This document shows, one piece after another, positions 8,084 through 64,000 of a DNA stretch of 64,000 bases. The position numbers were made by a program, and so were the translations under genes. Within the stretch, counting starts at the first letter, position 1. Each line of letters opens with the position of its first letter. The DNA is from Halisarca cf. caerulea (taxonomy: Eukaryota; Porifera; Demospongiae; Chondrillida; Halisarcidae): NCBI GenBank assembly GCA_963170055.1, contig CAUJGJ010000332.1, forward strand, positions 2,607,001 to 2,671,000, read 5' to 3'. The notes below the pieces were generated by a model that was not told the origin of the DNA, made no database searches, and was given only the letters and a program-made list of their open reading frames with translations.

Positions 8084-8524
8084 GCTGAAAGTATCATTGC
8101 AATACGTACGTATGTTTCTATGCTGGTGCATGGCTTTCAGAACTCTTTCATGCCTTTTATTTGTGTATATGAAATGCTATCCATGCATTATAGGGATGGT
8201 TAGGATGCTGTATGTAGAGTGTCTTGGGTTCAAGGGGTTAACTATGTACACACATACAACACCCAAGGATGAGTACATACATGACACTAATGCATGAATG
8301 CCTGAATGCCATTGCCTAACTGATACATACATCCAGGGCTTTTGTCATGGGATATTTGCTTGCCGAGATGCAGCAAAGACCCCAAGGTACTCTACATACA
8401 GTATTCTACCTATTCTCCAAGGATTCATGGATTACATACTGTAGTACTACTCACCCTTGAGTATTTTATGTATGTACTGTAGGTATATTTAACCTCCTGA
8501 ACACATGAGCACCATTGCATAGCT

Positions 8525-9419
8525 GGTTCAGATGAGGGCCCTGAGATTGTTCTTTGGTGTAGGAACTCTACATCCAAAGGTTTCACTTTTAGCCGAGATG
8601 GGGGACCTACCAGTCAAATGGTTAGCGAGGATGAGGTGTGTGATGTTCTGGAGTAAGGTCCTGACCAGCAGAGAATATGATGGACGGTTGTTAAGACGAA
8701 TAGCAACGGCGGCAGTAGGGTTGGGTAGAGGTCCTTGGATTCGTAAGGTGGGGATGTGTTGGGGGCAGTTTGGGTGGAAGGATGTTAGTGTGGAAGTGCT
8801 TAAGGAGTTGTCGGCTGTGGAAGTGAGAGAGATGCTGGAAGCCATTGCCTGGAGGAAAGTACAGGAGGAATGGGGACAGGAGATGGAGACAAAGCCTAAG
8901 TTGGAGATGTTGAAGAGGATTGTGAGTTTGGGAGAGTGGTCGGAGTGTGCGAGAGTGTGGAGAAGATTGGATAGGAGGATGATGATGAAACTGAGAGGAG
9001 GCACAGCAGGATTTGAAATTGAGACGGGAAGATGGAGAGGTGTGTCAAGAGAGGAGAGAGTATGCAAATTATGTGATAGTGGTGAAGTGGAAGATGTGGG
9101 GCATTGGCTGATGAGATGTGAGGCATGGGGAGCACAGCGTGTACCATTGGAGGATTGGATGGAACGGCACACTGTCAGTACCCAAGATCCTGCTGCATCC
9201 CTGCTGTCTGCCGCATGCACAAACTACCAGCTATTGGAAATTATTTCATGTATGTGGCGTGCAAGATTTGGTTGACCCTATTTGTTATTATGACACTGCC
9301 CATTTCTTTTCTTTTGTGTGTGTGTTTTTCTTTCTGATGAAAGTGCTACATGGGGCCAGTGTGTGCCCTAGTGCCAGTGGGCATGGTGCACTGTAGTAAT
9401 TATTGATTGATTGATTGAT
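8525..9419 (+). mobile_element. 5'-truncated LINE (non-LTR retrotransposon)
   Basis: The insertion is present only at the start of unit A. B and C read through between gcaccattgcataact and the tataatgcactg region. It carries the C-terminal part of a LINE ORF2 and ends in a (TTGA)n tail, attgattgattgattgat at 9401-9418, typical of some LINE clades. The 5' end is lost, as expected from incomplete reverse transcription. Confidence 0.8.
8532..9275 (+). pseudogene. LINE ORF2 C-terminal fragment
   Basis: This is a 247-codon open frame without its own gene start. It continues from the post-reverse-transcriptase region: MRALRLFFGVGTLHPKVSLL and AEMGDLPVKW near the N-terminus match the conserved segment that follows RT in many LINEs. 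A C-terminal zinc-knuckle-like CKLCDSGEVEDVGHWLMRC fits the CxxC...H...C motif. RT catalytic motifs and endonuclease are missing, so the fragment is not autonomous. The frame is unbroken, so the insertion is comparatively young. Confidence 0.8.
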
Positions 9420-9523
9420 ATATAATGCACTGTTTATGTACTCATTCCTCCTCTAACATGTACATTGTCATACTATTGCGTCCTAGTAGCTATAATTTTG
9501 CTCACATTGGGCTGAACTCCCAG

Positions 9524-9694
9524 GACAAAGTCTTGACAAGAACTGTAGGGTCACATGTTGTGCTACACTTGCATAATCCATGCTTGATACAGATCACTAC
9601 CTGTCAACACAGATCACAACAAAGTATAAGCAGTAGATACTATATAGCAGGAACAATTGTAGCTTGGGGGTGCAACCTTACCCCCTTGAGCCAA
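9524..9694 (+). CDS. Candidate exon p, unit A (LRR-like?)
   Basis: This open segment of 57 codons lies between the acceptor gctgaactcccag and the donor gtgatt, phase 0 at both ends. HVVLHLHNPCLIQITTCQ shows hydrophobic spacing ending in cysteines, compatible with LxxLxLxxC. Unit B (28009-28179) and C (47608-47778) have identical length and borders. Several differences are silent, such as CAA to CAG at the last codon and ACT ACC to ACA ACT. The gtgatt donor is weak and is shared with exon t. The segment could also be a non-coding duplicated stretch. Confidence 0.35.
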
Positions 9695-10947
9695 GTGATT
9701 ACTCTCCTTTGGGTGCTCCTCTCATTCTCTGAATCATACTTTGGTGATTGTAGACTTATTCACTTTTGTATACTTGTACCTCACATGAATGTAATGTTGA
9801 ATGTGTAGATATTTACTATTGTTAGCCCTTCCAGTGTCTTTTGCCTTGCATAGACTTATTCACACCTGCACTCTGTATTTATCAACCAATGAACATCAAA
9901 ACAACCATTTTAGTCCATTAATCAATCAACACTGGTTGTGCAGTTCACATTGAATCATTGTTCTTGGTGTCCACAAAGGACGTTAAATGTTAGGAGGAGT
10001 GTAGTTTTACTTCTTAATTCTGTAATAATATTCTAATGCAGTCTTTACTTTGTAAACTTGCGTGATCTCTGTTTGCTTACATTTTATATTGGAAAACCAC
10101 ATTGACAATGGTTAACAGGACCGTAGGAACCTATTCGGCAGGTACCAATTCACCAATATTTTGTAAACCTTTGTAAAAAAGAATACTTGAAAGTTCTATA
10201 TTTGCAAGGAAAGTAAGAAACCATAATAATCTTGTGCATGACAGGGCCTCGTGCAAGAACTAGTTTATGATAAGAGCCAATCCAACCTTCATTCACTTTG
10301 ATACTAGCTATATCAATGAATTTGCCCAAAATGCAGCGAGTTTTCTTCAAAATAGTAATGAAGGTGAAAATTACCAAGCTGAAGGATAAGACCTTTGTAA
10401 ACCTGATACCATTGTTGCAGAGATAAACCGTTATAACATACTCACAAGTAATTCAGGACGAGTGGCGGCAGCCCCACGGTTTTTTTGCCCAAATTACTTG
10501 AATGAACCCTAACACTAACTCAGTAGGTTATTTCTTTTTTGTAACAGGCACAGTATGGTTGAATTGTCGTCGTCATCAAGTTTTGTGCTGCATTAATTTA
10601 ATTTTGTTAGTGATACAAAAAATGTTGCCTGACCAAAGAAAAATAGCTTCCTACGGCCCTGGTTAACATGTATTATGTTTCATGAGCAGTCACCCAAATG
10701 GTGCTAATGTATCCTCGCATGTCCTCAGTGCAGTGTGCATAACAGTTGAGAACTGAGTCAGGTACATTGGGGAGCTACTATTGATCACAGCTAGGTAGAG
10801 GCATTGTCTCAGAACTATAATCAGTTGTAGTTTAAGAAGTGCAGTGAAACCTATGTTGTCTGGATGGTGTGGCCAGGTCCAAAGGGTCTCCATAAGACTA
10901 CATAAAACTGCTGTGTTTTGAGTTGGTGCTTTCTGAATGTCTCACAG

Positions 10948-11016
10948 GAAAAGCTTAGGGGCTTGCTTCTTCAAACAGCAACAGCAGAGGACTCATTGAA
11001 TTGTCGTACAAATGAA
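10948..11016 (+). CDS. Candidate exon r, unit A
   Basis: The exon has 23 codons in phase 0-0 after the strong acceptor ctgaatgtctcacag. The peptide starts EKLRGLLLQTATAEDS and ends NCRTNE. The next bases, gtgtag, are a poor donor, and reading on meets a stop after one codon. B and C keep length and frame with one alanine-to-threonine change. The leucine-rich start would suit the family, but the exon is too short to classify. Confidence 0.4.
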
Positions 11017-11203
11017 GTGTAGCTGTCCTTTCCAACGCTTTGAACTTTTACTTCTTGTAAATGTGGGATGATCACATGTGTATTCTGCATCTTATTTTCT
11101 ACTCATTGTTCTGTTAGTATTGTGGAGATTGGAGTGAGTGTGAGAGTTGTTGTTTGTGCATTCACTACATGAATGTCTGTGTCCATACATGTCTCCTCTC
11201 CAG

Positions 11204-11290
11204 GACCAGACTCCAGTGAATGAGGAGGAATTGTGTGATGCATGGTCAAAATGCAAGTGTAAAACAGTGAATGTGAGAGTTGACCAATTA
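11204..11290 (+). CDS. Exon s, unit A (LRR-like)
   Basis: The exon has 29 codons in phase 0-0, between the polypyrimidine-rich acceptor tctcctctccag and the consensus donor gtaagt. The peptide includes PVNEEELCDAWSKCKCK followed by TVNVRV. Its helix-then-strand spacing (LCDAW, then V.V.V) resembles one LRR turn. It lies 187 bases downstream of exon r, and the phases allow direct joining. In B and C the last five residues differ (EIRSS or similar in place of RVDQL) without changing length. Splice signals are strong; the function is an inference. Confidence 0.55.
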
Positions 11291-12063
11291 GTAAGTGATG
11301 TGTACTGTATCACTGGTTATGTGACATGCTCTAAAGGATTCTAAATTTTGTACTACTACTGCAGCCATTACCCTTACTCACACCTGGTCCTACACAGAAC
11401 TTTCATGTACATACATATTACCATCTTATGTTGGTGCATGCTTTGCATTGTCTTATGTCTACACACCACCTGCATAGTCTTGTCACCAGTACAGTCCAGC
11501 ACGGTGGGTAGTAAACAATGAGTGCATGAGATCAAGTGTTGTCTGTTGCCTAACATTGTTCATGAATTGTATGTCAGTTGTGAGGACTAGCTAACCAGTA
11601 ATTATAGAGAGTGGTAGGCCCTTGCCTTGAGGGAAGACTACTTGTGTTACAATAGTCTGATGGTAGAGAAGGTGCTAATTTATCAAAGTCATTTCTGCTA
11701 AGTACGTATATCTCTTTCATTGTCATACTGTACAATATACATGTATTCCCAAAGTGTATAGGATCGAAGCATGTATATACATGTACACTCTTAAAGCAAT
11801 TACCATGTGCTTTGTTAGTTGTTTCAGAATTAAGTGTGTCAGGACACATACAAGAAGGGTGCCATTAATGTGGGTAAAGAAGGTTGTAGCTGGTTATACC
11901 CTGTCCCCCATCTTAAAACTACAGTATGTACAGTCAGACCTCACTTGTCTGTGCACATCTGTTCTGGATGTACTGCGGATATAGCAAGGGTGGAGGATAA
12001 ATGAGAGAGCAGTGGTATAGTATACAGTAGAATATTGCAATTCATTCCAATGAAAACTGCTTA

Positions 12064-12650
12064 ATATAATAATAATAATAATCATCACTGGTCATAGCCA
12101 AAATGGCCCTTGACCTCAGCAATAGTATTTATCTTATCATGACAAAGCAACTACACATGGTATGAAACATCATGTAAGAGTACACACACAGAGGACACAG
12201 TGGCAAACAAGGAAAACATGGTAAGAAACATCAACTGAAGAGTACACACACAAAGGGCATGTACAGTGGCAGGCAAAGAAAACAAATAGAAAACGACAGC
12301 AAAATCAAATAGGTGGCGATAAATAGGCTAATCTTAGTTGTGTTGCTTTTGAAATATATTGTGAAGTTTGATTGATGATTGCAGGGTCTCTACTGCCCAG
12401 GACATAAATAAATTTTTCATGGGAAGATAGAAATTTGAATGTACTATAACGACAATTTAAAAATGAGAATAGTTGAGATCGTGGTTGGGAATAAAATGGG
12501 CAGACAATCAAAAAGTGGACTTCATCCTCAATAGAATTTAGACTGCATAGTGTGCATTTACGTTCTAAGACAGGTGTGATGTGAAAATGTGAAAATATGT
12601 AATATGTAATGTAATATGTGAAAATATATGTATATATATATGTATGTATG
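12064..12650 (-). mobile_element. LINE 3' fragment, only in unit A
   Basis: This is a unit-private insertion: B and C read straight from the aaaactgc(a)ta region to the aggtgagg region. The minus-strand frame (about 12305-12595) contains CTLCSLNSIEDEVHFLIVC, the zinc-knuckle-like end of a LINE ORF2, then a 3' flank ending in an ATT repeat (complement at 12065-12081). TA-rich microsatellite (about 12600-12680) borders the 5' side. The fragment is decayed and short. Confidence 0.7.
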
Positions 12651-13128
12651 TTTTTGTATATATGTATATATAATATATGTGAACTGCATAATATATGTGA
12701 GGTGAGGATCAGTGAGGTCTCACTGTATACAGTATACAGTAGAACTTCCATTGCCTGACACTCCATAGTCTTCTGGTATATTGCAAATGTGTTGTGTTTA
12801 CTGCATGTCCTTGTACTCATTATTTACTCATGATTTTGTATGTCACACAGCTTACATAAGGTTTAGTCACACAGTAAACACGCGTGCGCACCACGTATTC
12901 TTGATTCCGTACTGCTGTTGTCTTAGGAACAATTGTGTATTGAGAAGTGACTAGGTTGATATAGGTAGTAGACTGAGTGTGATGCAATTTATTTATTCAT
13001 CTCATTTTGTTGTTTATTGGTTTGTCCCTTGATCTCTCAAGGACACTAACACTACCGTCTCGTGTAGCCCAGACCACACTTTCCATTAGTTCTATTTCTG
13101 TAATTGATGGTGACATGATTTGTTGCAG

Positions 13129-13210
13129 AGAAGGTAGTCTGGTGAAAATCCAATACCAAAGTTGTGTGAGTCCCAAAAGTTGGGGGTTCATTTGTTATGC
13201 CATTGCCCAG
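13129..13210 (+). CDS. Exon t, unit A (plus arm; LRR-like)
   Basis: The exon is 82 nt after acceptor tttgttgcag and before donor gtgatt: one base, then 27 codons. The peptide EGSLVKIQYQSCVSPKSW followed by YAIAQ shows LxxIxYxxC, the core of an RI/NLR-type leucine-rich repeat. SPxxW recurs in exon q (LSPVVW). The entry phase needs two bases from an upstream exon, which exon s (phase 0) does not supply, so an exon may be missing or the acceptor may be two bases later. Confidence 0.5.
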
Positions 13211-13602
13211 GTGATTAAACGGAATTCATGGTGTTGACATTAGCGAAGAGAAGCCAGAAAAAGACACTTTCCTGTCCTTTCCCAGTATCTAAGGTAAATC
13301 CATCGTTTTTGTCACACTACCAATTGTGTTTAATGGTCTTTGTGACAAGTAAGGGATAATTGTCGTTTGTATTAGCCCTTACTTTTGGTAGTACAGTGAA
13401 TACGCTGGATTTTCCTTAGTTAAGAACAGGAAAGTGTCTTTTCCCTGGTAGATATCAACATAAAAACCTCTTCCTGCTTGTCTCCAAGCTTCTCCGAACT
13501 AAATACAGTTGCTGTGTTCTTTAGCACAGCCTACATATGCAGAAACTAGAATTTTGCAGCCATCGTTTGCATCTCTTCGCTAACGTCTCTTTCGTTAATC
13601 AC

Positions 13603-13684
13603 CTGGGTAACCACATATTGATGGTGCCTCCCAGTTTTGGGGGCTGTCACAACTTTGGTATTTGATCTTCACCAGACCACCTTT
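13603..13684 (-). CDS. Inverted copy of exon t, unit A (minus arm)
   Basis: On the minus strand an 82-nt stretch lies between the acceptor cgtcacag and the donor gtgatt. It reads KGGLVKIKYQSCDSPQNW, then EAPSICGYPG. It is clearly homologous to exon t and remains open in all three units with mainly conservative changes (D/A, N/Q, S/L). It may belong to an opposed gene or be a relic caught in the inverted duplication. Confidence 0.4.
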
Positions 13685-14529
13685 CTGTGACGAAATGACA
13701 TCATCATATATAAAAGGAGCAGAAAGTGTGGTCTGGGTTACAAGATACTAGACACTCCATGGACTTCAAACGCAGGTGTCAGATTACAGATCAAGGTTGT
13801 TATAATGTTATTATGGAGTGATTCATGTCTCTCAGTTGATTGATGGTCAGGTTGGAGAGAATGTTGGAGTATTGAGGTGTCGGATTAAGGAAGTTCTACT
13901 GTATTACCAGCATGTTATATACATACGTATAGCATCCGTTACCATGGTAATGGCACAATTGTGATTTTATAACGTTTGAAACATGGATGTCTAACTCGCC
14001 GTGCGATTATACCTCGAAACCTGTGATTTCTGACTAATGTACCTCACCTTAATGCTCCTGACCAGCTTTCTGAAGTAATCCACACTGAATCGAACTCACA
14101 AGAAGCCAATCTTCACTGCAAGGAGTGTGTATAGCATCGTAGCTGAGAGAGATTTGTTTAGGAATTCTTACCGCCAATTCTCTTCCAAGACTCGATAATT
14201 ATATTTTAAATTGCTTTGTGCAATTCCTGGAAGACAGGAACGCTCACCCAAAGTCCACAAAGGATGCTTTGGTAGTTAAGACATAGGGAACAGGCTGCAT
14301 GGCATATAATATGCACTTGCCTTCAAGTGCTTCACACTCTCGGGACTCAGCATTTCATATGCTGAACAACCCTCACCCCTATGTCTTCACTACTATGTAA
14401 CAAGCATGTATCTATGACTTGAACTGAGATTCATTCATTATGTACTACATAAAGTATAACTACACACAGTTTCAGATTCCACCTCATAAGGCCTACAAGG
14501 AGGGGTCAGAGGAGATACTTAGTATAGTC

Positions 14530-14812
14530 CAGTGTTTTCCCCAGACAAAAATTAAAGGGGGAGGGGTATGGCTTTAGTGCTGCTGGGTGCCTGGCTTTCT
14601 AGTTTTCTTGTCTCGAATTAGAGGTGGAGTAAACAACTATACTGAACATATTGTATGGTTATTATCAGTGACAATATGTATATTATTAGAATTGAGTTGC
14701 TTCTATCTTTTTTCAAGCTTTTAGTGTACAGTACTGCATGAAAATTGAAATTTTTGCTATCCAAGATTATAGGGGGATGTAGTGCCCCCTACCCCTCTTT
14801 AAGGGAACACTG
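14530..14812. mobile_element. TIR MITE with 6-bp target duplication, unit A
   Basis: The ends are CAGTGTTTTCCCCAG and the complement of CAGTGTTCCCTTAAAG, flanked on both sides by atagtc (14524-14529 and 14813-14818). The interior is G-rich near the left end and C-rich near the right. It has no coding capacity. It sits about 75 bp upstream of exon u. It is present in all three units, so it predates the duplication. Confidence 0.75.
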
Positions 14813-14888
14813 ATAGTCTACTTCATTCACTAGTAAAAAGTTTGAATTACTTTAATATAAGCAGTTATTCACACAACTCCAACTGCAG

Positions 14889-15050
14889 GACTGTCGATCT
14901 TGTACAGAAAAATCAGCAGATATTATGTTGGGGATACTCAATCAAACTGCCAATCTGCCAGAAAATGACCAATATTTCCAGTTATTTGGTATCTATCAAA
15001 TTGACAGTTGTCCTTGTAACGCAGGTCTTACAACTCTTCCCTTCATGCAG
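14889..15050 (+). CDS. Exon u, unit A (LRR-like)
   Basis: The exon has 54 codons in phase 0-0 between acceptor actccaactgcag and donor gttcag; an earlier GT (gcaggt) is possible. The peptide starts DCRSCTEKSADIMLGILNQ, continues FQLFGIYQIDSCPC and ends GLTTLPFMQ. FGIYQIDSC fits the LxxLxLxxC strand, and the leading segment looks helical, together about two LRR turns. B is one codon longer; C has lost one base. Splice sites are conserved in all copies. Confidence 0.55.
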
Positions 15051-15697
15051 GTTCAGTGTGTTTTTCGGATTATTTGTTATTACCTCAAAATCCAGATGTC
15101 CTCCTTTATGTATAGATGTAGTATTTTACACTAACAGTGTGTAAAATGTAAACAGACTCAGTATAATTCATGGGTTACTTAAAATTGTTTATCTTGTGGG
15201 TTGTGTGTTAGCATGCAGTATTGAGTAATTTGGTGTAACTTGGCTAACGAGTGCTCTCCCAGAGCAAGACCATGTTAATATGTACCTAAGGAACTGTACA
15301 TCATGTCCAGAATGGTGCTACTACAGGACCCAGTTTAAATGTTGTATTGCCTCAACTATTGAATGCTGAATTGCAAAACCTTGTTGTTGTGAAGAGTACA
15401 TGTGGTGCTCTGTATCACGACGAGGAGTATCAGCCAATGCCAACAACATACTGTTTTGTTCTATGTTTCTTTGTTTATGACAGTTGATCTTCATACCCTT
15501 GGCTCAGGTGGGTTGAGAGTAATATTGCTTTGGGTAAATGGGTGTTGGAATACTTTGTGCATGCTAGACATCACTCAGTTTGTTTACTAGGTATGAGAAT
15601 TGAGTGTCCACCCATTCTATCAGCCGATAATGGATTTTGAAATGTACATACCACTGTACGATACTGTATCATTTTCACTTCCTTCTATTTTTCACAG

Positions 15698-15794
15698 GGA
15701 GATGATTGTGAAGGATATGTTACAAAATCAGTGTTAAAAGGAATGTCAATCAATAGACATGTACAACACTTATCTCTGGGCCCATATTATGAAG
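15698..15794 (+). CDS. Exon v, unit A (LRR-like)
   Basis: The exon is 97 nt, phase 0 in and phase 1 out, between acceptor tatttttcacag and donor gtatgt. The peptide is GDDCEGYVTKSVLKGMSI, then NRHVQHLSLGPYYE. The helix (SVLKGMS) plus strand (VQHLSL) reads as one RI/NLR-type leucine-rich repeat, the clearest one here. The trailing base joins in frame with the two leading bases of exon q, making glycine. Relative to B and C it lacks 15 nt after the strand, with the frame intact. Confidence 0.6.
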
Positions 15795-15890
15795 GTATGT
15801 ATCATTCCTTGTCTACTTCTGTAGTTGCTACAATTAATTCAAAGCACTGTAAATTCACTACATGGCTGTGCAGTACCATGTCAATTCATG

Positions 15891-16506
15891 GCCGTAGGAG
15901 CACCATTTTGAAGTGTCCGATCAGTTTGAGCCGATCACTACATACAGTACTATGCTCAGACCAGTCATGTTTCAGTTCATACTATTATTATATGCAAGTG
16001 CATAATAACACTATTGAACTTGTATAATATATTGAAACCAATAACTAAAGCATTTATTATTTAATTCCCAACAAAACAGCTCAAATCAATACTTAGACTA
16101 ATATGTGGTAAAAAGGGCTACTCCGCTGGGTTATTCTGTCCAAAAGACGTCTTTAGGAATGTAAATTTATCTGGACCGATGTGGAGAGGCAGATAGCAGC
16201 GGGTTATCCAACGATTCAGCAATGATTTTCCAGCACCGTTGTATGAAAGAATAGCACTCCACGAATGAAGTATTGACGCACGTGAGTACATAATCGTGGA
16301 TAAGCAGACTGATTAGAAATCTCCCAATTCTGGTATATAAAGCTAGTTTAAGCTGTAATGAAAGATCATCATAGCTTCTTGGGTTATGTGTATTTCTGGG
16401 TCTGCTAAAATGTTTTTTTCTTAAATTTACAAAATAATTATACTGAGTTTGGCTGAAATATTGGTCCGGTGAAAACCGAACCAACCGGACCTACTCCTGC
16501 AGCCAT
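15891..16506. mobile_element. Repeat R, second copy in unit A
   Basis: This block starts gccgtaggagcaccatttt and ends accggacctactcctgcagcc, and has imperfectly inverted ends. Near the right end ttggtccggtgaaaaccg forms a short hairpin. The same block occurs at 27321-27979, 34076-34762, 47303-47577 (internal deletion) and 53881-54548, so it is a dispersed non-autonomous element. A minus-strand frame (16167-16484) is conserved only because the copies are similar. Confidence 0.65.
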
Positions 16507-16698
16507 GCACTTCCATTGTTTTGAGGGCATTTGAATTCCTGACTTCACTCCAGGTATAGGATTGATGGTGTAACAGTAAGAGTTACTCTTTGCTTATTCA
16601 ACTGTACTATACGGATTTCTCGAGTCTTTTGGAGCTCTTAAGCCTACGTATCTCCGCGTAAGTACTACTATTAGAGTGGAGGTGGTTGCACCTCACAA

Positions 16699-16905
16699 CT
16701 ACCAAAAGACCATGTTAGTGTCTCCACATTTGTCCCTTGTTTGAAGTACATGCACTCCACTGATCATCCTTGTCTTTTGTTTCCCTTCATTCTGGAGTCC
16801 AAGGATAATAGTATTGTTTGTCAAATGCTCTTGTGTCAAAGCAACAACCTCAAAGTAGTGGTCACATATCATCACACACCAGTCATTGTTTAACATGTTG
16901 TCCAT
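16699..16905 (-). other. Conserved minus-strand open frame, unit A
   Basis: This frame of 68 codons contains NNDWCVMICDHYFEVVAL and HLTNNTIILGLQNEG. B (34957-35232) and C (54745-55008) extend it upstream to MSLLQRV, whereas A has a stop there. On the same strand a good donor (gaag followed by gtaagc) lies within the extended frame. The protein is not recognised, and conservation may only reflect recent duplication. Confidence 0.3.
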
Positions 16906-17342
16906 ACAGTACAGTAAACTGCTTACCTTCTGATACTAGACTCTTTGAAGTAAAGACATGATAGTGTAGTTAATCTAAAGGACATAATTGGATTTCCTGA
17001 AATATTTCCTCCCTAATATATGTTTCACCTACAAAAAGAGGGCACCGGCTCTCCATACAAAGCACGAAGACAACTGAATTGGTATTGTTTCTGCTGTGCT
17101 GGCAGGTATTAGTCAGTGGAATTTGGGGGCACTGTGCAAAAATCACTGAAATAGGTATTCATTATTGTTTCTATCTGCCTGTTATAAAGAGGATGGAATT
17201 GAAGTGAATGATGAAACCTTTCTAGAAACACAAAGTTACCACTTGTAAACTACCAAGATGGTGTCATATACATGCACAACTTCAGAATTAAATGCATTTT
17301 TCCTGCCAAAGTTTAGCGTTACAGTATTAGTCAAGGGTGGAC

Positions 17343-17495
17343 ATGATTGTGACAGCATCGATTTTTACTGCAATGGCTACCATACACATTAATTTAGCTG
17401 TTTTTGCTTGTGAAGAAACGGATTCATGTCCAATTGAGGGCACAGATGAGTTTGTAAGAACATGTAAGGAATGTACATGGTTGAGATATATATAA
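17343..17495 (+). CDS. Short ORF, 50 aa with hydrophobic leader, unit A
   Basis: The ATG-initiated frame starts MIVTASIFTAMATIHINLA, a hydrophobic stretch of about 20 residues like a signal peptide or membrane anchor. A cysteine-bearing tail follows (ACEETDSCPIEG, later RTCKEC), then TAA. It is intact in B and C at the same place. An in-frame gtaaga after DEF could be a splice donor, which would make this a first exon. Expression is unproven. Confidence 0.3.
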   Translation: MIVTASIFTAMATIHINLAVFACEETDSCPIEGTDEFVRTCKECTWLRYI

Positions 17496-18160
17496 ACCAA
17501 ACCACTCAGCGAAAATGTGGCAGTGATGAAGTTACGAAATTGATACCTCTTTGGAGAACACATTAATTGAAACACGCTCTGAATTTAGTCCCTAGCTAGT
17601 ACAGTAAAATCTCCACACTTAATTTTCTGCCTAACAATAATTTCTAGCATCATAGGTACAGTACAATCAGCTACCTCAGAGTATTAGATATTCATCAAGT
17701 CTGAAATCCTTCAAGCATGCAATATCAAAATTGTAACTCAAGATCAATCATTTCATTTTATGGATTCCGCATGAACTCAGTGTTTATTATATATGTAATT
17801 ATCCGTGTGTACATTGCCTGTGTTACTTTGTGGCATTTAATTGTGTTTATTATGAACTTGTCTGTATGAGTATAGCTATGCCTGTGTTACTGTGTACCTG
17901 AATGTCCAGGACCTGCATGAAAACCCACTCTTGTGGATGCAGCATTCCTGTTTCAAATAATTTATCTATCTACAGTACACTTCATAAAACCTGACGAGAA
18001 TAGCCCTTTCTGGTTCGAATTTGACACTTTCCATCACGTTTAGCGTTTGGCGAGTTTCTATTAGCGGTAGGCGTTTAATGTTTGACTAGCGCTAATTTAA
18101 GCATCAACCGTTAAGCGTTAACGGATTTCAGTTTACGTTAATAAACTTAGATTTTTCTTC

Positions 18161-18328
18161 ATGAAGGTAACAATTCGTTTAGATATGACGGCAAGACGTA
18201 TCTTGAGGTATATTCAAAGCTTCAAAGACAAGATGACACGTCTGGAAAGTTTCACGAAGGATAAGCAGTCCAGTAGGCGCTGTGAAGAAAAAGTCGAGCA
18301 GAAGGAAATTCACTGCTTCATAAAATAG
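18161..18328 (+). CDS. Short ORF, 55 aa, basic, conserved in all units (A)
   Basis: The frame begins MKVTIRLDMTARRILRYIQ and ends KEIHCFIK before TAG. The middle is rich in Lys, Arg, Asp and Glu. All three units keep ATG, length and stop (TAG, TAG, TAA), and several differences are silent. It follows a CpG-richer block (about 18000-18140) with repeated agcgtt-like words that could be a promoter. The overlapping 67-codon minus frame is broken in C, so the plus frame is preferred. No family is recognised. Confidence 0.4.
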   Translation: MKVTIRLDMTARRILRYIQSFKDKMTRLESFTKDKQSSRRCEEKVEQKEIHCFIK

Positions 18329-18589
18329 CTCACAAACGTCACTCCTTCGAATTCCTTTGAATCGATAGAAGTATACATTCACTTGGCAGCGTTTAAGGGG
18401 TGAACCGAGAAAAGATTATTTCGGATAAACGCTATCGGATTATGGCTTTCAGTAAATCGCACAGTGGAGAGATATATAATTTCGCTTTTGCAACTGATAT
18501 TCCGTCACCGGAAAAGCGCGAATACCTGTTAGAGGATTTCCATTGGCGTCACAATTTTTATGAAGCATACTGTATCTATCTGTTGTTTT

Positions 18590-19980: not shown

Positions 19981-19981
19981 T

Positions 19982-49025: not shown

Positions 49026-49094
49026 GAAAAGCTTAGGGGCTTGCTTCTTCAAACAGCAACAACAGAGGACTCATTGAATTGTCGTACAAATGAA
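49026..49094 (+). CDS. Candidate exon r, unit C
   Basis: 23 codons, phase 0-0. It matches A except for the Thr shared with B (ATTEDS). Confidence 0.4.
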
Positions 49095-52318: not shown

Positions 52319-52394
52319 ATAGTCTACTTCATTCACTAGTAAAAAGTTTGAATTACTTTAATATAAGCAGTTATTCACACAACTCCAACTGCAG

Positions 52395-52558: not shown

Positions 52559-52606
52559 GTTCAGTGTGTTTTTTGGATTATTTGTTATTACCTCAAAATC
52601 CAGATG

Positions 52607-53063: not shown

Positions 53064-53672
53064 AGATGTCCTCCTTTATGTATACAGTAGATGTAGTATT
53101 TTACACTAACAGTGTGTAAAATGTAAACAGACTCAGTATAATTCATGGGTTACTTAAAATAGTTTATCTTGTGGGTTGTGTGTTAGCATGCAGTATTGAG
53201 TAATTTGGTGTAACTTGGTAACGAGTGCTCTCCCAGAGCAAGACCATGTTAGTATGTACCCAATAAAGTTTACAGCATGTCCAGAATGGTGCTACTACAG
53301 GACCCAGTTTAAATGTTGTATTGCCTCAATTGTTGAATGCTGAATTGCAAAACCTTGTTTTAGTGAAGAGTACATGTGGTGCTCTGTATCACAACAAGGA
53401 GTATCAGCCAATGCCAACAACATACTGTTTTGTTCTATGTTTCTTTGTTTTTGTCAGGTGATCTTTATACCCTTGGCTTAGGAGGGTTGAGAGTAATATT
53501 GTTTTGGGCAAATGGGTGTTAGAGTACTTTGTGCATGCTAGACATCACTTGGTTTGTTTACTGGGTATAAGAATTGAGTGTCCACCCATTCTATCAGCCT
53601 GATAATGGATTTTGAACTGTACATATCACTGTACGATACTGTATCATGTTCACTTCTTTCTATTTTTCACAG

Positions 53673-53784
53673 GAACATGATTGTGCAAGATATTTTGTAA
53701 AATCAGTGTTGAAAGGAATGTCAATTAATAGACATGTACAACACTTGAAAGTTGATACTTCCTATGTGAGCCCATATTTTCAAG
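53673..53784 (+). CDS. Exon v, unit C (LRR-like)
   Basis: 112 nt, phase 0 in and 1 out. EHDCARYFVKSVLKGMSI, then NRHVQHLKVDTSYVSPYFQ. It shares the five extra codons with B. Confidence 0.6.
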
Positions 53785-53880
53785 GTATGTATCCTTCCTT
53801 GTCTACTCTGTAGTTGCTACGATCAATTCAAAACACCGTAAATTTCACTATACGGCTGTGCAGTACCATGTCACTTCATG

Positions 53881-54548
53881 GCCGTAGGAGCACCATTTTG
53901 ATTGGTCCGATCAGTTTGAGCCGATCACTACATACTATGCTCAGACCGGTCATGTTTCAGTTCATACTATTATTATATGCAAGTGCATAATAACACTATT
54001 GAACTTGTATATATTGAAACCGATAACTAAAGCATTTATTATTTAATTCCCAACAAAACAGCTCAAATCAATACTTAAGACTTATATTTGGTAAAAAGGG
54101 CTTCTCCGCTGGCTTATTCTGTCCAAAAGACGTCTTTAGGAATGTAATTTTATCTGGACCAATGTGGAGAGGCAGATAGCAACGGGTTATCCAACGATTC
54201 AGCAATGATTTTCCAGCACCGTTGTACGAAAGAATAGCACTCCACGAACGAAGTATTGACGCACGTGACTGCATGTAAAAATGGCGTCGAAGTGGCCACA
54301 TTTCTTGCGCGATCGGCAGAATCATCTAGTACATTATCGTGGATAAGCAGACTGATTAGAAATCTCCCAATTCTGGTATATAAAGCTAGTTTAAGCTGTA
54401 ATGAAAGATTGTCATAGCTTCTTGGGTTATGTGTATTTCTGGGTCTGCTAAAATGTTTGTTTCTTAAATTTACAATATAATTATACTGAGTTTGGCTGAA
54501 ATATTGGTCCAGTGAAAACCGGACCAACCGGACCTACTCCTGCAGCCA
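53881..54548. mobile_element. Repeat R, second copy in unit C
   Basis: Starts gccgtaggagcaccatttt and ends cctactcctgcagcc. It retains the segment missing in A. Contains a minus-strand frame (54150-54527) of unknown meaning. Confidence 0.65.
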
Positions 54549-54744
54549 TACATGCTCTTCCATTGTTTTGAGGGCATTTAAATTCCTGACTTCACTCCAG
54601 GTATAGGATGATGGTGTAACAGTAACAGTTACTGTTTGCTTATTCAACTGTACTATACGGATTTCTCGAGTCTTTTGGAGCTCTTAAGCCTGCGTATCTC
54701 CGCGTAAGTACTGCTATTAGAGTGGAGGTGGTTGCGCCTCACAA

Positions 54745-55008
54745 CTACCAAAAGACCATGTTAGTGTCTCCACATTTGTTCCTTGTTTGAAGTACATGCA
54801 CTCCACTGATCATCTTTGTCATTTGTTTCCCTTCATTCTGGAGTCCAAGGATAATAGTATTGTTTGTCAAATGCTCTTGTGCCAAAGCACCAACCTCAAA
54901 GTAGTCTTCACATAATATCATCACACACCAGTCATTGTTTAGCATGTTGTCTATACAGTACAGTAAACTGCTTACCTTCTGATACTTGACTCTTTGAAGT
55001 AAAGACAT
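54745..55008 (-). other. Conserved minus-strand open frame, unit C
   Basis: 87 codons from MSLLQRVKYQK. A 3-nt gain changes the middle to MILCEDYFEVGAL. The end is as in A and B. Confidence 0.3.
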
Positions 55009-55389
55009 GATAGTGTAGTTAATCTAAAGGACATACTGTAATTGGATTTCCAGAAATATTTCCTCCCTAATATATGTTTCACCTACAAAAAGAGGGCACC
55101 CTCCATACAAAGCACGAAGACAACTGAATTGGTATTGTTTCCGCTATGGTGTTGGCAGGTATTAGTTAGTAAATTTGGTGGCACTGTGCAAAATCACTGA
55201 AATAGGTATTCATTATTGTTTCTGTCTGTTATAAAGAGAATGGAATTGAAGTGAATGATGAAAGCTTTCTGGAAACACAAAGTTACCACTTGTAAACTAC
55301 CAAGATGGTGTCATATACATGCACAACTTCAGAATTAAATGCATTTTTCCTGCCAAATTTTAGCATTACAGTATTAGTCAAGGGTGGAC

Positions 55390-55542
55390 ATGATTGTGAC
55401 AGCATCAATTTTTGCTGCAATGGCTACCATACACTTCAATTTAGCTGTTTTTGCTTGTGAAGAAACGGATTCATGTCCAATTGAGGGCACAGATGAGTTT
55501 GTAAGAACATGTAAGGAATGTACATGGTTGAGATATATATAA
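55390..55542 (+). CDS. Short ORF with hydrophobic leader, unit C
   Basis: 50 codons and TAA. The leader is MIVTASIFAAMATIHFNLA. The four cysteines of the A copy are kept. Confidence 0.3.
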   Translation: MIVTASIFAAMATIHFNLAVFACEETDSCPIEGTDEFVRTCKECTWLRYI

Positions 55543-56215
55543 ACCAAGCCACTCAGCAAAAATGTGGCAGTGATGAAATTACGAAATTGATACCTCTTTG
55601 GAGAACACATTAATTGAAACACGCTCTGAATTTAGTCCCTAGCTGCTACAGTAAAATCTCCACACTTAATTTGCTGCCTAACAATAATTTCTAGCATCAT
55701 AGGTACAGTACAATCAGCTACCTCAGAGTATTTGATATTCATCAAGTCTGAAATCCTTCAAGCATGCAATATCAAATTTGTAACTCATGATCAATCATTT
55801 CATTTTATGGATTCTGCATGAACTCAGTGTTTATTGTGTATGTAATTATCTGTGTGTACATTGCCTTTGTTACTTTGTGGCATTTAATTGTGTTTATTAT
55901 GAACTTGTCTGTGTGAGTATAGCTATGCCTGCGTTACTGTGTACCTGAATGTCCAGGACCTGCATGAAAATCCACTCTAAGACTTGTGGATGCAGCATTC
56001 CTGTTTCAAATGATTTATCTATCTATAGTACACTTCATAAAAAACCTGACGGGAATAGCCCTTTCCGGTTCGAATTTGATACTTTCCATCACATTTAGTG
56101 TTTGGCGAGTTTCTATTAGCGGCAGGCGTTTGATGTTTGACTATCACTAATTTAAGCATCAACCGCGAAGCGTTAACGGATGTCAGTTTACGTTTATTAA
56201 CTTAGATTTTTCTTC

Positions 56216-56383
56216 ATGAAGGTAACAGTTCATTTAGATATGACGGCAAGACGTATCTTGAGGTATATTCAAAGCTTGAAAGACAAGATGACACGTCTGG
56301 AAAGTTTCACGAAGGATAAGCAGTCCAGCAGTCGCTGTGAAGATAAAGTTGAGCGAAAGGAAATTCACTGCTTTATAAAATAA
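56216..56383 (+). CDS. Short ORF, 55 aa, basic, unit C
   Basis: MKVTVHLDMTARRILRYIQ to HCFIK with TAA as stop. The substitutions include silent GTC to GTT and TTC to TTT. The antisense frame seen in A and B has a stop here. Confidence 0.4.
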   Translation: MKVTVHLDMTARRILRYIQSLKDKMTRLESFTKDKQSSSRCEDKVERKEIHCFIK

Positions 56384-57019
56384 CTCACAAACGTCACTCC
56401 TTCGAATTTCTTTGAATCAATAAAAGTATACATTCATTTGGCAGCATTTAAGGGGTGAACCGAGAAAAGATTAATTCGGATAAACGCTATCGGATTACGG
56501 CTTTCAGTAAATCGCACAGTGGAGCGATAATTTCGCTTTTGCAACTGATATTCCGTCACCAGAAAAGCGCGAATACCTGTTAGAAGATTTCAGTTGGCGT
56601 CACAATTATTATGAAATGTACTGTATCTATCTATCTATTCTTAAGTGCTTTGTACAGTGGTACTCTTAAAGAGAATTCCCACCATCCGACTAAATGGTAA
56701 CTACAAATGTAAAGGATGGTAATAGGGTGAAAAGCGTGGAAAAGGGACAGATAATGTGCACCTTTTGCTAGATTTAGTGCTTTGGCATTTTAGACTGTTG
56801 TGCAGGTAGTAACGTTCTTTGGGTCTTCTGTATGTGTACATTGGATGAATAATCATCCAGTGCTTTAAGTGAGAGTAGTTCTGTGATTAGTTCAAAGTTG
56901 TCTCATACTGATTGACGGAGCATTTTCTATGCCTGGCACCCTAGGGATAGCATGCAAACCATAATGCACAGTAGGTATGGCTGAATGGCTCATTTGTTTG
57001 ATCTGACAACTGTGTCAGG

Positions 57020-57372
57020 TCACCAGCTCCTTGTTGTGATGGTGTCTGCACAGCAGTTGTTTTGCCCTTTAATTCCAGCAATGCATGATCAAGTCTTTTC
57101 CCATTTGTCCTACCTTCAAATAAGACAATAGGAAAAATTACCTTGCACTTTGGATTTCCATATTCTGGAATGTAATAACTTCAGGGAGAGCACTTTGTTA
57201 TCATATTGTGTAGTTCCTTTTCTAGACTATCCATTCTTTCTTTAGCTCTATTGTTATTGTAAATGACAGCATCCAATATTCATTGATTAACATCATCTGC
57301 ATATTGCTCACTTTCATCTTTCAAACTAGCCACAATACAGATTGCACATTGAATAGACCTATTGCATCCTGT
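57020..57372 (-). pseudogene. Broken copy of minus-strand exon, unit C
   Basis: Homologous to 37238-37597 but with a TGA in the part reading LNQS in B, the same in-frame TGA after CSP as A, and loss of the region just after the acceptor. Confidence 0.5.
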
Positions 57373-57771
57373 CGTGTGAGCTGGCAAAAGTATTCTTTCT
57401 CAGACACCCATTAGTTGTATTATTTTAAGGTATCATTGGATGCTACTGTTATCCTACTATCAGTACGTGAGTGTAGGAATGTAATTCAGGAAGTAAGGAT
57501 ACTTACATTGAAGGCACTGCCACGCAGTCGTAAAACTCATGTTTACAGACATGTCTTGTGGCGATTAAGTTATGCACATCATCGGAGCTATGAATACCAT
57601 TATTATTGCTTTATTGAAACTTTGTTAAATGTTACAAATTACTAACAATGACTCAGAATTAGTTTTAGACTGTTCTTTTGGTACCAGTATGCTGGTAATC
57701 TCAGTCAACGTTGAGCAGCCATTTTCCATGCTATGCATAAAATTTGTCTTCATAAGCATGTGATATGACAG

Positions 57772-58420
57772 GCCCGTATAAGTTGGGGGATTCGGGTGGT
57801 CTGTCTGAAACCCCACTGGATAGATGGGTTCCACTTGCCAGAATAAGTAAATCTTTTATTGCAGTATTGTTCTTGAATGTACAGCAATTTAAAGGAAAAA
57901 ACAGCTATAGAATTCTCTTGAAACTACAAAATATCTAGTACAATAAGCTATAACTAAATTCCATCTCTATACTTTGAGAACTAGGGCCATCTCTGAGATT
58001 GCAAAGTTGGGGACACCATTTTGTTGTGATTTCAATATGTTTCATGACACATAATCACAAGGGCAACTCAACACTATAGAAAATCATGCTTATATAATGA
58101 ACAAATTTGTATGTCTAAATTATGTTCTATTATAAAACATTCAACTTGTTTTATTGATTTTCTGAAACAGTGGGTGATTCTAAGGGTCCCTGGGAGGAAG
58201 GTTCTACTGGTACAGTATCTGTAGTATGTTGGAGCAATATAATACACACATTGGCACAGGGCTAGATGAGCATGGGCTACACATGGGCTAAACAGGCTCG
58301 TATAATTTGGGGGGGTTGGGTGGTTTGTCCGAAACCCCACTGGACAGATGAGTTCCACTTGCCAGAATATGTAAATCTTTTATTGCAGTATTGTTCTTGT
58401 ATGTACAGAAATTTTAGGGT
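57772..58420. repeat. Pair of ~120-bp direct repeats, unit C
   Basis: Copies at about 57772-57895 and 58289-58420, collinear with A and B. Confidence 0.6.
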
Positions 58421-58620
58421 TAGTTGGACTGAGTGCACACTGTGCAAATTCCTACATCCCACAGAACATACATATAATGTGCTGCACATGTGGGATGTAG
58501 GAATTGGCACAGTGTGCACTCATTCCCAGCTAAACTTTGTTTAGCCCTATACCCATCTAAATTCCTACATCCCACAGCACATACGTATAATGTGCTGCAC
58601 ATGTGGGATGTAGGAATTGG
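58421..58620. repeat. Hairpin inverted repeat plus tandem second hairpin, unit C
   Basis: The first hairpin is at 58421-58533 and the shorter second at 58560-58620, as in B. Confidence 0.7.
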
Positions 58621-60410
58621 CACAGTGTGCACTCATTCCCAACTAAACTTTGTCTAGCCCTATACCCATCTAGCCTCCAGTTTTTGGAGGGTCCTTTTTG
58701 ATAAAGCCTTTTTGCACAATCCTGTGTCAACCCTACATCTTTCCACCATTTTTAATTGTATTTTATACACCCTATGTACATACATATAGACATTAATGTA
58801 GAATAAGTAGTTGTAAGTTAAATATGCCATGCAGACAGAGTGCCTATGTGTCAAGCATCATTTGACTGTATAACTTGCTGACAACATAAGATCACATTTG
58901 TAAACAAAGTAAATATCAGTGAATACCCCCAAAGAATACTTTCATTGTGTTTCTTGTTTACAGTGTTAAGTTGCTTCTTAATTGCCTTGACAAGCTCATT
59001 TCGTTTTGTTTGACCTGGAGCACCTTCTTTTAAGATGATTTGAAGGTACTTGGCTCTAGTCATAGGTTTCTATCCATAGATTCAAAACGGGTTTGATGTC
59101 CACATTTTATATAGTTGAAATTGCAGTACTAAGGTACCATTTCCATGGTAGCAGGTGCTTTTAATTTTATAGTGCGTGAGTTCCCAGTCTTTGGTGACTT
59201 TACCACTGAAATAGATATGTACACGTCTGTGTACTTTAATATAGAAGTCATGTAACAAGATGTAGTTTATCATAACCTTATGACTGCATAATGCTCTAAA
59301 CATTTGTTTATTTCTTTCCTAATGACACTTTTGACTCAGCAATTATGTAAATGAGCTATTTGAACCCAAAAGCCATCACAAGTCATGTATGATGAACCTA
59401 TCCACATTCTCTGTACAACCAGAATACATCAGCAGACCAGCCGTATGTATGTATGCATGCAACATGGGGTTACTGTACCTGTGACCACTTTACCAAACAA
59501 TAATCCAATTTTCATCCAATCTTGACTGGTATAGAAGAATAGTAACGTAGCATTCCGAGGCATGTGTAGAGATGTTTGGGTCCATCTGGGATCTATAGTA
59601 TAGTATGAAGTATTTATCAAAAGTGACAGTCATGTTAGATGATGTAGGGTCAATGACAAGTAGCTGCGTAGTGTTTTGCGATCAATTAGAGCAGTCATTT
59701 TATTCACCAAATCTAGCTGTCATTATAGTTATTTGACACCCGGCTATAATAGACCAACTATGGCTGTTTTCAATCCTGGCTACTAGATGAACCCAGCCTT
59801 CATGCCAACACAGCCTTTGTTTGGTGAAATGTGATGTGCTATTGTAGTACAGTGGTCCCCTGTGAATTGCATACCCTTGGGACTTGGTAAAAGTTTTCCC
59901 TTATCCAATACATACACTCCTGCTGTGCAAGCAGTGGGGACTGTATATAATATGTATATTTGTATGAATTTGTGCATTTATTGTGATATATATGCATAGA
60001 GTGAAGTGAATAACATGTTTCAAATGGGACTTGGGAGAGGTAGAAAGAACTGTTATTGGCTTTTTCATTGCAGGGTAACTGGGTAACTGACTGGGATAAG
60101 CAGTTTAAATTTAGTGTGTGGTTACTATTCTTATAAGCAGTATGCTTTATATACTTGGTGAATATAAGTGAACTGAACTTCTTATTCCTAAGTATATCCA
60201 GAATATTCCTTTAAGCAGTTAATTTACTACAGTGCACATATATAAATGATTCTGTAATTTGAGACTACATTCCACTAACCAGAATATTCCTTTAACCAGT
60301 ATTCGAATATGTGGGGAGCACTGTACTTGCAACCTCTCATTTCGTTGATATCATTTGTCACTGGTTTATTAGTGTTCTGTAATTATATTATGGGATCTAC
60401 TTTGTTGCAG

Positions 60411-60583
60411 GAATTGACGCAGAAAATCAAGATTGGCTGTATTCTCTCAAGAAGTTACTAATCTCACGTATCAAGTGTGCGTTGAACTTGAAACTCTCTC
60501 CAATAGTGTGGTCTGCTATCCTCTGTGGAGTAGGAGATGCTGAGGACCTGGAGGAACTGGATGTGACCCTGTGGTTCTCCAAT
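60411..60583 (+). CDS. Exon q, unit C (LRR-like)
   Basis: 173 nt after tttgttgcag. The start is IDAENQDWLYSLKKLLIS like A, then IKCALNLKLSPIVW, and LEELDV, LWFSN. The central KC-LDL part carries three non-silent changes, the rest none. Confidence 0.6.
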
Positions 60584-61074
60584 GTAAGTTGTGGTATGTT
60601 GTGTAGAGTGGATTGTTGTTCTTCATTGATCAAGCCACAACATGTCAAAACAGATACTACATAGTGGATGGTGATCAGAGACTCAGACTATGTATAGTAA
60701 ACCTGTACTGTATGTAGAGTGAAGCTCATTGTGGAAGCACTAACTGCTACTTGACATCACAGAATCTACTTGTTGATCTGTGTAGAGATAGCATCCTAAA
60801 ACATAAGAGTGGACTTTCACATTAGTGGAGCTAGTGATTCACTAATCATTTTATCTTTCCATAATGCACTGGTACACGTTGTACAGTGATACACATTGTC
60901 AGGGTTCTCCCTAGGAAAAAAGAAACAACTAAAAAAGATAATTATGTAGGGACTGTGGTGTATCTCATGGTTACCTGAATTTTAATACCATAATAAAAAC
61001 ATTAGCAGCACATTTGTACTAGAGGAAGGAAACTGCTCATCTTTGACCTTTTTCTAACCTGTTGTCATGATGTA

Positions 61075-62130
61075 TATCCAGGCTGTATCCTCAGTTATTT
61101 CAAGGGAGAGCGGGTGGCTCAGTAGGTGAGCTAATAAAATTACTACAGTATAAGTTGTGTAAGGTTGAAGGAGTGTCATATGAAAGCACTTGGCTCTAGT
61201 CGTAGGTTTCCAACCATAGATTCGAAACAGATGATCCACACCCAAACACCCGGATAGTGTACACATTTGTGGATTTCTCTCTATACCCCTCCACCTGTGG
61301 TGGACAGTACTTTAGACCTTGTGTGTTTTGTATTTTACTGCTTTCTGTATGTAATTGATTTTACTTTGCATGCATGTGCACAATAACAATCATCCATTTG
61401 TGTCCCTGTCCACCTGTCTTGTCTTGTCTCATGCTGGCTATGTTATTCGATTAACTAATGGTTACGGTTCCCCTTCGAACTCACATCAACCATATTGGTG
61501 ACCCTCGACGCTGGTCATTTCGACCAAGAACATGCTTTTGACAACGGATCCTCTTTCCTACCAGCACCACGGCTACGGCTACGCGGATCGACATCTCACT
61601 ATGCGCCCCACGACTTCAGGACATTCTCCTCCTACATGCTTGACCAGCACCTTTAGGGTGGCTCGCTGGTCGGTGGCCTCCTCCGCAACCTTCGGCTCGT
61701 CCTCATCCATGGCCCAGATACGCCCAAGTCCGGCTCATCATCAGCCACGCCACAACATGCGCACTCATTGAAGTTTATATGCCTGCCTTGCCATGCCACA
61801 TCCCTGAGACAGACACTAATGCTGGCACTTCCTCCACTATAAACCAGCACCCACATCCATTTCTCCGACTCTCTTGACTTCCTTGACGGATCCACTGTCA
61901 CACCAGTGGCAAGGAGTCAAGGAGTACTCGAACATGGATTACTTTGCCGTGAAATGCCATAACACACACTTCAACGACAGCACATGTGTATCCAGTCTGT
62001 ATCTTCAATGTAATAAAGTTACAGTATAAGTCATTTAATTGTGTAGGGTTGAAGGAGTGTCATAGGAAAGTACTTTGCTTTAGTCATAGGTTTCTAAAAC
62101 ACCCAAATGGTGTACCGATTTGTGGATTTC
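61075..62130 (+). mobile_element. LTR-retrotransposon leader-like block, unit C
   Basis: Third orthologue, with attggtgaccctcgacgctg near 61493 and an open gag-like frame (61532-61771) starting MLLTTDPLSYQHHGYGYAD. Basic, Ser/His/Pro-rich. No capsid motif can be recognised. Confidence 0.35.
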
Positions 62131-62518
62131 TCCCTGTACCCCTCCCCCCCACCCCCTTCAACCACCTGAGAGATGAGAGGAGAACATCACCTATTAAATT
62201 ACAGTCACATGAACAATCAGTTTGATTCAGATTCATTGTATGTTGATGTAGTGCATGTGTGTGTGTACAGTTGTGTAACTTGGGGGTGTTGTATCGCGTT
62301 GCTTGTAGCGATCAATGAAACAGAACGATTTCACAGAATGAATCACAATACCAACAAGCACCAACTCATGCAGTATAACTCTCACTAAAACTAACTGAAT
62401 CAACATAGACCATGCAACCTATGTATACATCAACTAACAATCAAAACACACATACGTACACATATCATGCACCGATAGTACCAAACACCAAAATTCACAA
62501 TTCACATACACAAACAGT

Positions 62519-64000
62519 CTAGTTTGAGTTACTAAGTTGGTAGGAAACCATTCCATGACGAGATGGTGGTTTCCTGGGCGGGGTTGAGCGGCATGGCTCC
62601 AGGTTAGTCTCTTTAGGGGATGAGGCCTCTGTTGGTTGATCAGCAGTGCTAGTAGTGGGAATCGGGATGTCGAAGTCATCTTCTGGAGCGGTTAATGGAG
62701 TTGTGTGGGTACGCACATGATCCACATGACGACATACAAATCTACCATCGGTACATTGAATTGTGTATAACAAACGTCCTCGAATTTCCTTGATAACCCC
62801 AGGAGACCAATGGTTAGAAGCATTAAAGTTGCGCACAAACAACGGATCTCCAATATTGAAACTTGTTTGGAAGGTAGAATGATCATGATCCAACTTCTGG
62901 TGGGATTGAGCAGACACCACCCTATCTGATCCAGATGTGATTTGATTCCCCTTCCCATTGATAACTGTGCAAGATGCGTTCCAGTTGTAGTATGAGAGGT
63001 ACTACGATAGCAGAAAAGGAAATGAACAAGCTGCTTCTAAACGCTGTCAGAGGTATCCTTTTTCATTGCTCTCTTAAATGTCTGCACATAGCTCTCAGCC
63101 AATCCATTTGAGGATGGTTAATTCCTTGAACTCCACACTTGTGAAAGCTTTGCCATTATCAGATACCACAATGTCAGGAATGTCATGCGTAGCAAACTTT
63201 TGTGGCAGTTGTGGCTGATGTTGCTGAGGGTATAATATCAATTTCCAACCACTCGGAATGAGTATCTACCACTACGAGGAACATTTTCCCCAGGAAGGGT
63301 CCAGCATAATCAATGTGGAGTCAGCTCCACGGTTGATCTGGCCATTCCCATGGATGCAGTGGTGCTGCTGCTGGAGCTTTCTGATTGAGTTGACATTGCT
63401 GGAATAATTTTACTCTCTCCTCAATAGCAGCATCAATCCCTGGCCACTAGACTACTCCTTGTACAATTCCCTTGATCCTCGAAATTCCCGGCTAAACCAG
63501 CATGCAGTTCCTGTAGAACCTTGGAGTTGAACAATGAGTGCACAACAACTCTGTTACCTCGTGCAGAGCAGACAACCATCCTGAAGCGACAGTTCATTTG
63601 TTCTGTGATGGAATGGCTGAAATTCCTCGTCAACATTATGTTCACTCTATCCCGTAGCTCCATCTCCATCACTGTTGAAAGTGTGGGGTCCCGAACGGTA
63701 AACGTCTCTATGTTCGATGCTGACAATAAGCTCTGCAGGTTCTCCAGTAGACGTACAGTCTCCCCAAGTAGAGGAATTTCTCTGGGAGTTTCAGGTAGAG
63801 ATAAGTGACTCAGTAAGTCTGCATTTCCATTCTCTGATCCTGGGCGATAGGCAATGATGTACTTGTAGGCATTGAGGGTTAGCACCCACCCCTGGAGATG
63901 GGCTGATGTCATTGCTGGAATGGTTTTCCCTTGTGCGAATATGTGTTGAAGTGGCTTGTGATCAGAGAAAATGGTGAAAAGGCGTCCTGCTAAGTACTGG
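62519..64000 (-). mobile_element. Decayed Ty3/gypsy pol fragment, unit C, cut by window end
   Basis: Closely follows the A copy, including the same in-frame stop before KQL and the same deletion before SSNGLAE. The integrase tail (62519-62920) reads FVRNFN; the RNase H/integrase-start frame (63433-63912) reads YRPGSENGNADLLSHL. The RT part lies beyond the window. Confidence 0.85.

Follow-up and report, generated by a model that had tools for sequence, protein, structure and literature searches.

A probable NLR-type immune-sensor gene with serial in-phase exon modules in the sponge Halisarca cf. caerulea

The present analysis concerns a stretch of 64,000 nucleotides from the demosponge Halisarca cf. 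caerulea (C308:2607001-2671000), hereafter the window, considered within an assembly of 194,469,755 bases in 454 contigs. Coordinates follow window numbering, with negative values upstream of the window. Self-comparison of the window delineates three head-to-tail units of ~19 kb each on the + strand, unit A (9495-27979), unit B (27980-47506) and unit C (47507-64000, extending ~2 kb beyond the window end), in agreement with the tandem array described in an earlier note drawn up from the letters of this DNA. Each unit carries one copy of a module of three exons, called here G, R and q. The window very probably holds the 3′ portion of a single gene for an NLR-type immune sensor, encoded on the + strand, in which the G-R-q modules would be used in series.

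The beginning of this NACHT-containing gene is located ~21 kb 5′ of the window, exons 1-8 spanning -20825 to -3506. As mapped with a public protein, P0001, they comprise, all on the + strand, an N-terminal exon ending at -20496, a short exon (-14004 to -13942), a NACHT exon (-10955 to -9278), which is the only one found on C308, and five middle repeat exons (-8722 to -8586, -5916 to -5812, -4853 to -4746, -4389 to -4333 and -3656 to -3506). The NACHT exon reads GAPGCGKST and ILDGYDEL, corresponding to the Walker A and B motifs. The ninth coding exon, q0 (3430-3590, + strand), is identified by its match to P0001 and to a second protein, P0002. It is 161 nucleotides (nt) long, is entered in phase 1 and left in phase 0, and its DNA is 82-83% identical to q of units A-C, in keeping with the earlier proposal that q persists in a diverged unit 0. 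Directly after q0, inverted arms at 3607-3711 and 3851-3997 have identical translated stretches; they probably mark a small mobile element that entered behind the q0 donor.

After q0, the gene would continue with three serial G-R-q copies, then with a fourth G. The modules span 11204-22069 (A), 29725-40901 (B) and 49287-60583 (C), one per unit. Exon G is found at 11204-11290, 29725-29811 and 49287-49373 (87 nt), exon R at 15698-15794 (97 nt), 33868-33979 and 53673-53784 (112 nt each), and exon q at 21897-22069, 40729-40901 and 60411-60583 (173 nt), with phases 0-0, 0-1 and 1-0, respectively, as read in module A. The fourth G follows q of module C and lies outside the window (67744-67830); all these exons are on the + strand. 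The nine exons of units A-C were placed by their match to a third public protein, P0121, and by their borders, and all take part in the chain described below. R of module A is 15 nt shorter than R of B and C, with the frame preserved, and the module lengths are 357, 372 and 372 nt, that is 119-124 residues or about four repeat turns. Thus, from the conserved split exon set of near-constant length claimed by the earlier note, the common order and borders hold for G, R and q, with a single length in A, B and C for G and for q. The exons s, u and v of that note came without coordinates and are not assignable to G or R.

The splice signals are nearly constant, with tctcctctccag before and gtaagt after G in its four copies, tatttttcacag or tattttttacag before and gtatgt after R, and actttgttacag or actttgttgcag before and gtaagt after q. 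The introns measure 4.1-4.4 kb (G-R), 6.1-6.7 kb (R-q) and 7.2-8.4 kb (q-G). When the exons are joined from an ATG that we selected within the N-terminal exon to the fourth G, the resulting 19-exon chain reads 1326 residues with no stop, GT-AG borders at 18 of 18 introns, and phases all fitting. The module itself runs from phase 0 to phase 0, so that repeat exons can be added or dropped in tandem without frame loss. Shared open reading frames (ORFs) are on their own weak evidence, because the identity between units is so high: of 214 segments of 165 bases that are open in A, 52 remain open in B and C without any gap. The case for exons therefore depends on splice borders of consistent phase and on public proteins free of introns. 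The borders of q were read from the sequence before P0121 came to light.

A search with the C308 NACHT exon returned 330 proteins, P0001 and P0002 being the closest among the best 120 of these. Both are 857-residue products of a 3430-nt contig (source JGI, 'hypothetical protein'), and both continue from NACHT into repeats and end shortly after q. P0001, which is intron-free, joins NACHT to q across the exon borders and maps exon by exon to C308, from the end of the N-terminal exon through q0. It is 93% identical in the NACHT exon and fully identical (100%) in all five middle repeat exons; over q0, P0001 and P0002 reach 74-83%. When the q ORF of unit A was used as a query, a single protein was obtained, P0121 (158 residues, 901-nt contig, source JGI), in which the end of G, R, q, G and the start of R follow each other. 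The counterparts of R of P0121 lie at 15704, 33871 and 53673 and those of its G at 11207, 29728, 49290 and 67747, and its q is 82, 80 and 84% identical to that of A, B and C. Because the G that follows q in P0121 corresponds to the next unit's G in this genome, P0121 crosses the unit border. Judging from these alignments, each border type is crossed by public intron-free proteins.

These data bear on the idea that every unit would be a short leucine-rich repeat (LRR) gene, starting and ending independently of the others. The head-to-tail repetition of the units would suit such an arrangement, as would the clustering of NLR genes elsewhere in the genome. We nevertheless consider it highly improbable, since P0121 continues from q into the G and R of the next unit. 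Moreover, units A-C were searched using tblastn with two NACHT exons and five other ORFs of contig C290, with P0001 and P0002, and with single exons; for NACHT or first-half repeat exons, nothing convincing but q was obtained.

The rest of the genome offers a useful comparison. With the q peptide, 15 matches are obtained at an expect value (E) up to 1: four are on C308, and the 11 others are distributed over C290 (six), C172 (four) and C5 (one). Each of the 11 outside q-like exons is preceded on its own strand, at a distance of 2.5-12.5 kb, by a separate NACHT match, whereas on C308 one NACHT exon serves four q exons. For this reason, one gene with serial exon modules is preferred over a gene family. 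Of the expanding recognition-type gene family envisaged in the earlier note, the recognition role is retained as probable, but the family would give way to a single gene. Another NLR cluster, in C290:200001-380000, shows NACHT exons at intervals of ~20-35 kb, and after each one come q-like repeat exons with strong variation at alternate strand positions; two kinds of q-like repeat exon are distinguished in all. At E up to 1e-5, the genome contains at least 53 matches to P0001, of which 51 fall in the NACHT part of this protein. P0121 has 26 matches, 11 being array exons and 15 weak q-like ones with E of 0.028 or more. The combined G and R peptide matches the array seven times out of eight, the eighth match having an E of 1.76.

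Outside the exons, the units differ by 4.8% (AB), 3.7% (AC) and 4.8% (BC) over 14,227 shared columns. Older, diverged partial copies of the unit flank them, on the left at 7463-8524 (73-91% identity in pieces) and on the right, beyond the window, at about 66030-68635 (77-86% in larger pieces). Therefore, an older array seems to have undergone recent expansion into A-C. The exons differ more than their surroundings, by 9.5, 8.7 and 7.5% (AB, AC and BC), with empirical p values for this excess of 0.017, 0.0046 and 0.072. The excess is nonsynonymous and strongest in the predicted beta-strand segments. Nonsynonymous sites are above the noncoding rate (p of 2e-5, 3e-6 and 0.0099), and synonymous sites are not. 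In whole modules, 31.3 nonsynonymous and 4.7 synonymous differences are counted for AB, 28.3 and 4.7 for AC, and 24.0 and 4.0 for BC. The corresponding ratios of rates, 1.84, 1.66 and 1.63, are not significantly above 1 by themselves (one-sided p of 0.165, 0.242 and 0.242). In strand segments, the ratios are 2.38, 1.96 and 2.70, as compared with 1.48, 1.23 and 1.27 elsewhere; these segments were picked after viewing the sequences, the three unit pairs are not independent, and one patch may be one event. Exon q taken alone is close to neutral (0.94, 1.88 and 1.4), and between A and C it does not exceed its flanks (7 differences in 173 positions versus 19 in 355). In q of A-C, three strand positions carry 8 of the 18 nonsynonymous pairwise differences, and the core from the helix to the second strand has no amino acid change. 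A similar pattern is seen in two related exons of C290 and C5, with seven copies each and the C172 copies left aside: three alternate strand positions give ratios of 2.05 and 3.0, versus 0.42 and 0.61 outside them (permutation p of 0.0019 and 0.0015). The differences between copies would thus lie mostly at positions presumed to be turned towards a ligand. Searching for exons from the substitution pattern alone gave a noisy list.

Could the module copies be bystanders, that is, spare exons left by segmental duplication and mostly unused in the message? The near-neutral q, ratios that do not significantly exceed 1, the end of P0001 and P0002 after q, and the quarter or so of cases in which a 165-base frame is expected to stay intact in all three units would all agree with this idea. 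Still, it appears improbable in view of the ten array exons, all of which jointly retain frame, borders and phase, of the unchanged q core, of the nonsynonymous change above the noncoding rate, and of P0121, in which a relative's protein holds the module in series.

Concerning the domains, Pfam detects NACHT in P0001 (9.1e-21), followed by a helical part. The model of P0001 has a mean predicted local distance difference test (pLDDT) score of 67.3, and its best structural alignments are with NLRC4, NOD2 and NLRP3, as for an NLR-type core fold. Strands and helices alternate, at low confidence, between residues 533 and 694. The low-confidence model of P0121, too poor for a fold search, has strands at 9, 41, 80, 107 and 135 with helices between them, and strand motifs occur at residues 21, 53, 91 and 116 of the 124 of module B. 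Such spacing would fit a ribonuclease-inhibitor-like repeat of about 25-38 residues. The LRR/NLR assignment of the earlier note is strengthened by exons that follow a NACHT exon in frame, but in the 684 C-terminal residues no LRR is found in Pfam, above or below the cut-off, and no match is found by sequence search of the PDB. We therefore infer the LRR identity of this part from its position, from the modelled strand-helix pattern and from the pattern of variation. The SPxxW signature, which the earlier note had left unrecognised, takes the form (S/T)PxxW and, in the low-confidence model, stands at the start of the helix that follows the first strand of q. With a hand-made LRR profile and with a regular expression, q alone stood out; a search of the genome with LRR_6 gave nothing, yet its positive controls also gave no match. 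For the N-terminal exon, no Pfam match lies above the cut-off, the best being DUF4853 (E of 0.082).

Several observations, including these negative Pfam and PDB results, weigh against the single-gene reading. P0001 and P0121 are a close relative's proteins from an unstated sample and possibly assembly products, and their identity to C308 is limited in the NACHT exon (P0001) and in q (P0121), as given above. The q0-to-G junction itself is absent from the public proteins, in which only its junction type occurs, in P0121. P0001 and P0002 stop after q through reading past its donor. P0121 terminates where its second R appears to leave the frame (residues 150-158, ...RYFVTNQC), and this could be either a sequence error or a broken copy. 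Beyond the fourth G, the search for a further R or q, or for a last exon, gave none. Finally, the P0001 model falls below a pLDDT of 50 after residue 688, and that of P0121 has a mean of 41.7.

The ends of P0001 and P0002 raise another possibility, compatible with one gene with serial modules and reaching further, namely that several receptor lengths are made from the gene, through the number of modules joined or a stop after any q, reached by reading on into the intron. Modules running from phase 0 to phase 0 can be joined in frame in any number, and P0001 and P0002 read past a donor that P0121 splices. Such a choice of ends is conceivable but rather unlikely: the read-through end may be incomplete splicing, and polyadenylation-like AATAAA or ATTAAA motifs within 1500 bases after q are irregular (none in unit 0, two in A, one in B and three in C). 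A search with residues 570-857 of P0001 matched only P0001 and P0002, so that no second isoform was seen. An earlier reading of q as an orphan or alternative last exon was displaced once P0121 revealed the module, and is kept as a rival. It may also be imagined, though this is distinctly doubtful, that the array acts as a repertoire generator, in which varying module number and ends, together with patches moved between modules by gene conversion, would yield many arcs from one gene. Hints in this direction come from P0001 and P0002, identical at residues 1-497 and from ~786 to the end but strongly different between, mostly in repeat exons, and from q of P0121, which combines a patch special to q of B (ETxSEYQDC) with a strand patch of q of C (CALNxKL). 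Both may be assembly mixtures.

Under the preferred reading of one gene with serial modules, the full 19-exon message would be made in this sponge. Duplication of whole units, probably by unequal crossing-over, would lengthen the C-terminal repeat arc in frame, because both boundaries of the module are in phase 0. The C-terminal arc would be a leucine-rich-repeat sensor whose fast positions contact ligands, and the NACHT domain would signal by nucleotide-controlled oligomerisation, as in known NLRs.

Animal NLRs such as NLRP3, NOD2, NLRC4 and the expanded NLRs of sponges share with this gene the NACHT core and the helical part that follows it, repeats C-terminal to NACHT and many clustered genomic copies. 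The present gene differs in C-terminal repeats invisible to Pfam, an N-terminal exon without a Pfam family and recent three-exon modules. Lamprey VLR cassettes and arthropod Dscam exon arrays also place repeat-coding cassettes beside a constant part. In these systems, the cassettes are assembled somatically (VLR) or spliced in a mutually exclusive manner (Dscam); neither is shown here, where the modules appear to be used in series. In human NLRs, each LRR exon is reported to be itself a module, and NLRP3 skips one 171-bp exon (PMC6642158), whereas here the in-phase unit is made of three exons. The brown algal ROCO and NB-ARC-TPR genes also have tandem repeat-coding exons, exon duplication and ligand-facing variation. 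One 72-bp exon corresponds there to one repeat, in another receptor class and lineage, and alternative splicing is proposed (PMC11378527, which mentions Dscam as well), whereas the present array is known from genomic exons and public proteins.

The interest of the locus is that of an animal NLR whose probable sensing end would have grown by whole in-phase exon blocks. As the copies are recent, with a divergence of about 4-5%, selection can be traced between them. The case also suggests that C-terminal repeats may go unnoticed by Pfam in NLR-like genes. In Dysidea, 63 genes with only a NACHT annotation are reported (PMC12909245), and some of them may hide such exons. If module number varies between individuals, a link between copy number and recognition becomes testable.

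One exon of the earlier note had to be discarded. Its exon t (SPKSW, about 13.06-13.25 kb), taken for an LRR exon, is an arm of a dispersed inverted (foldback) repeat, which lies at 13057-13748 in the G-R intron of unit A (arms 13057-13254 and 13595-13748) and is not part of the gene product. Copies occur in B (30955-31661) and C (50536-51240). For the 801-base stretch around t, 94 matches are spread over many contigs, a large number of them paired as + and - copies. The four copies listed outside the array on the + strand have 3, 3, 1 and 1 stops in frame, and that of unit B has one. P0121 joins G directly to R, without t.

Other elements and ORFs are seen in and around the array. Fragments of retroelements on the minus strand, at 24929-25534 and 43482-44117, contain RNase H-like domains of reverse transcriptase (Pfam 2.2e-10 and 7.8e-25) and lie inside the introns from q to the next G. 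The R-q intron of unit A also holds a dispersed repeat of ~600 bases (17970-18575), copies of which occur on many other contigs at up to 91% identity. In unit B, a 119-residue ORF of protein-like composition is found on the minus strand (37241-37597), without a Pfam match, and the alignment of unit A is gapped at about this place. Comparison with a phage collection gave no match. To the right of the array, beyond the window, other mobile-element-like ORFs are present, as well as a 471-residue ORF on the minus strand (76412-77824) that looks like a RecQ-type helicase.

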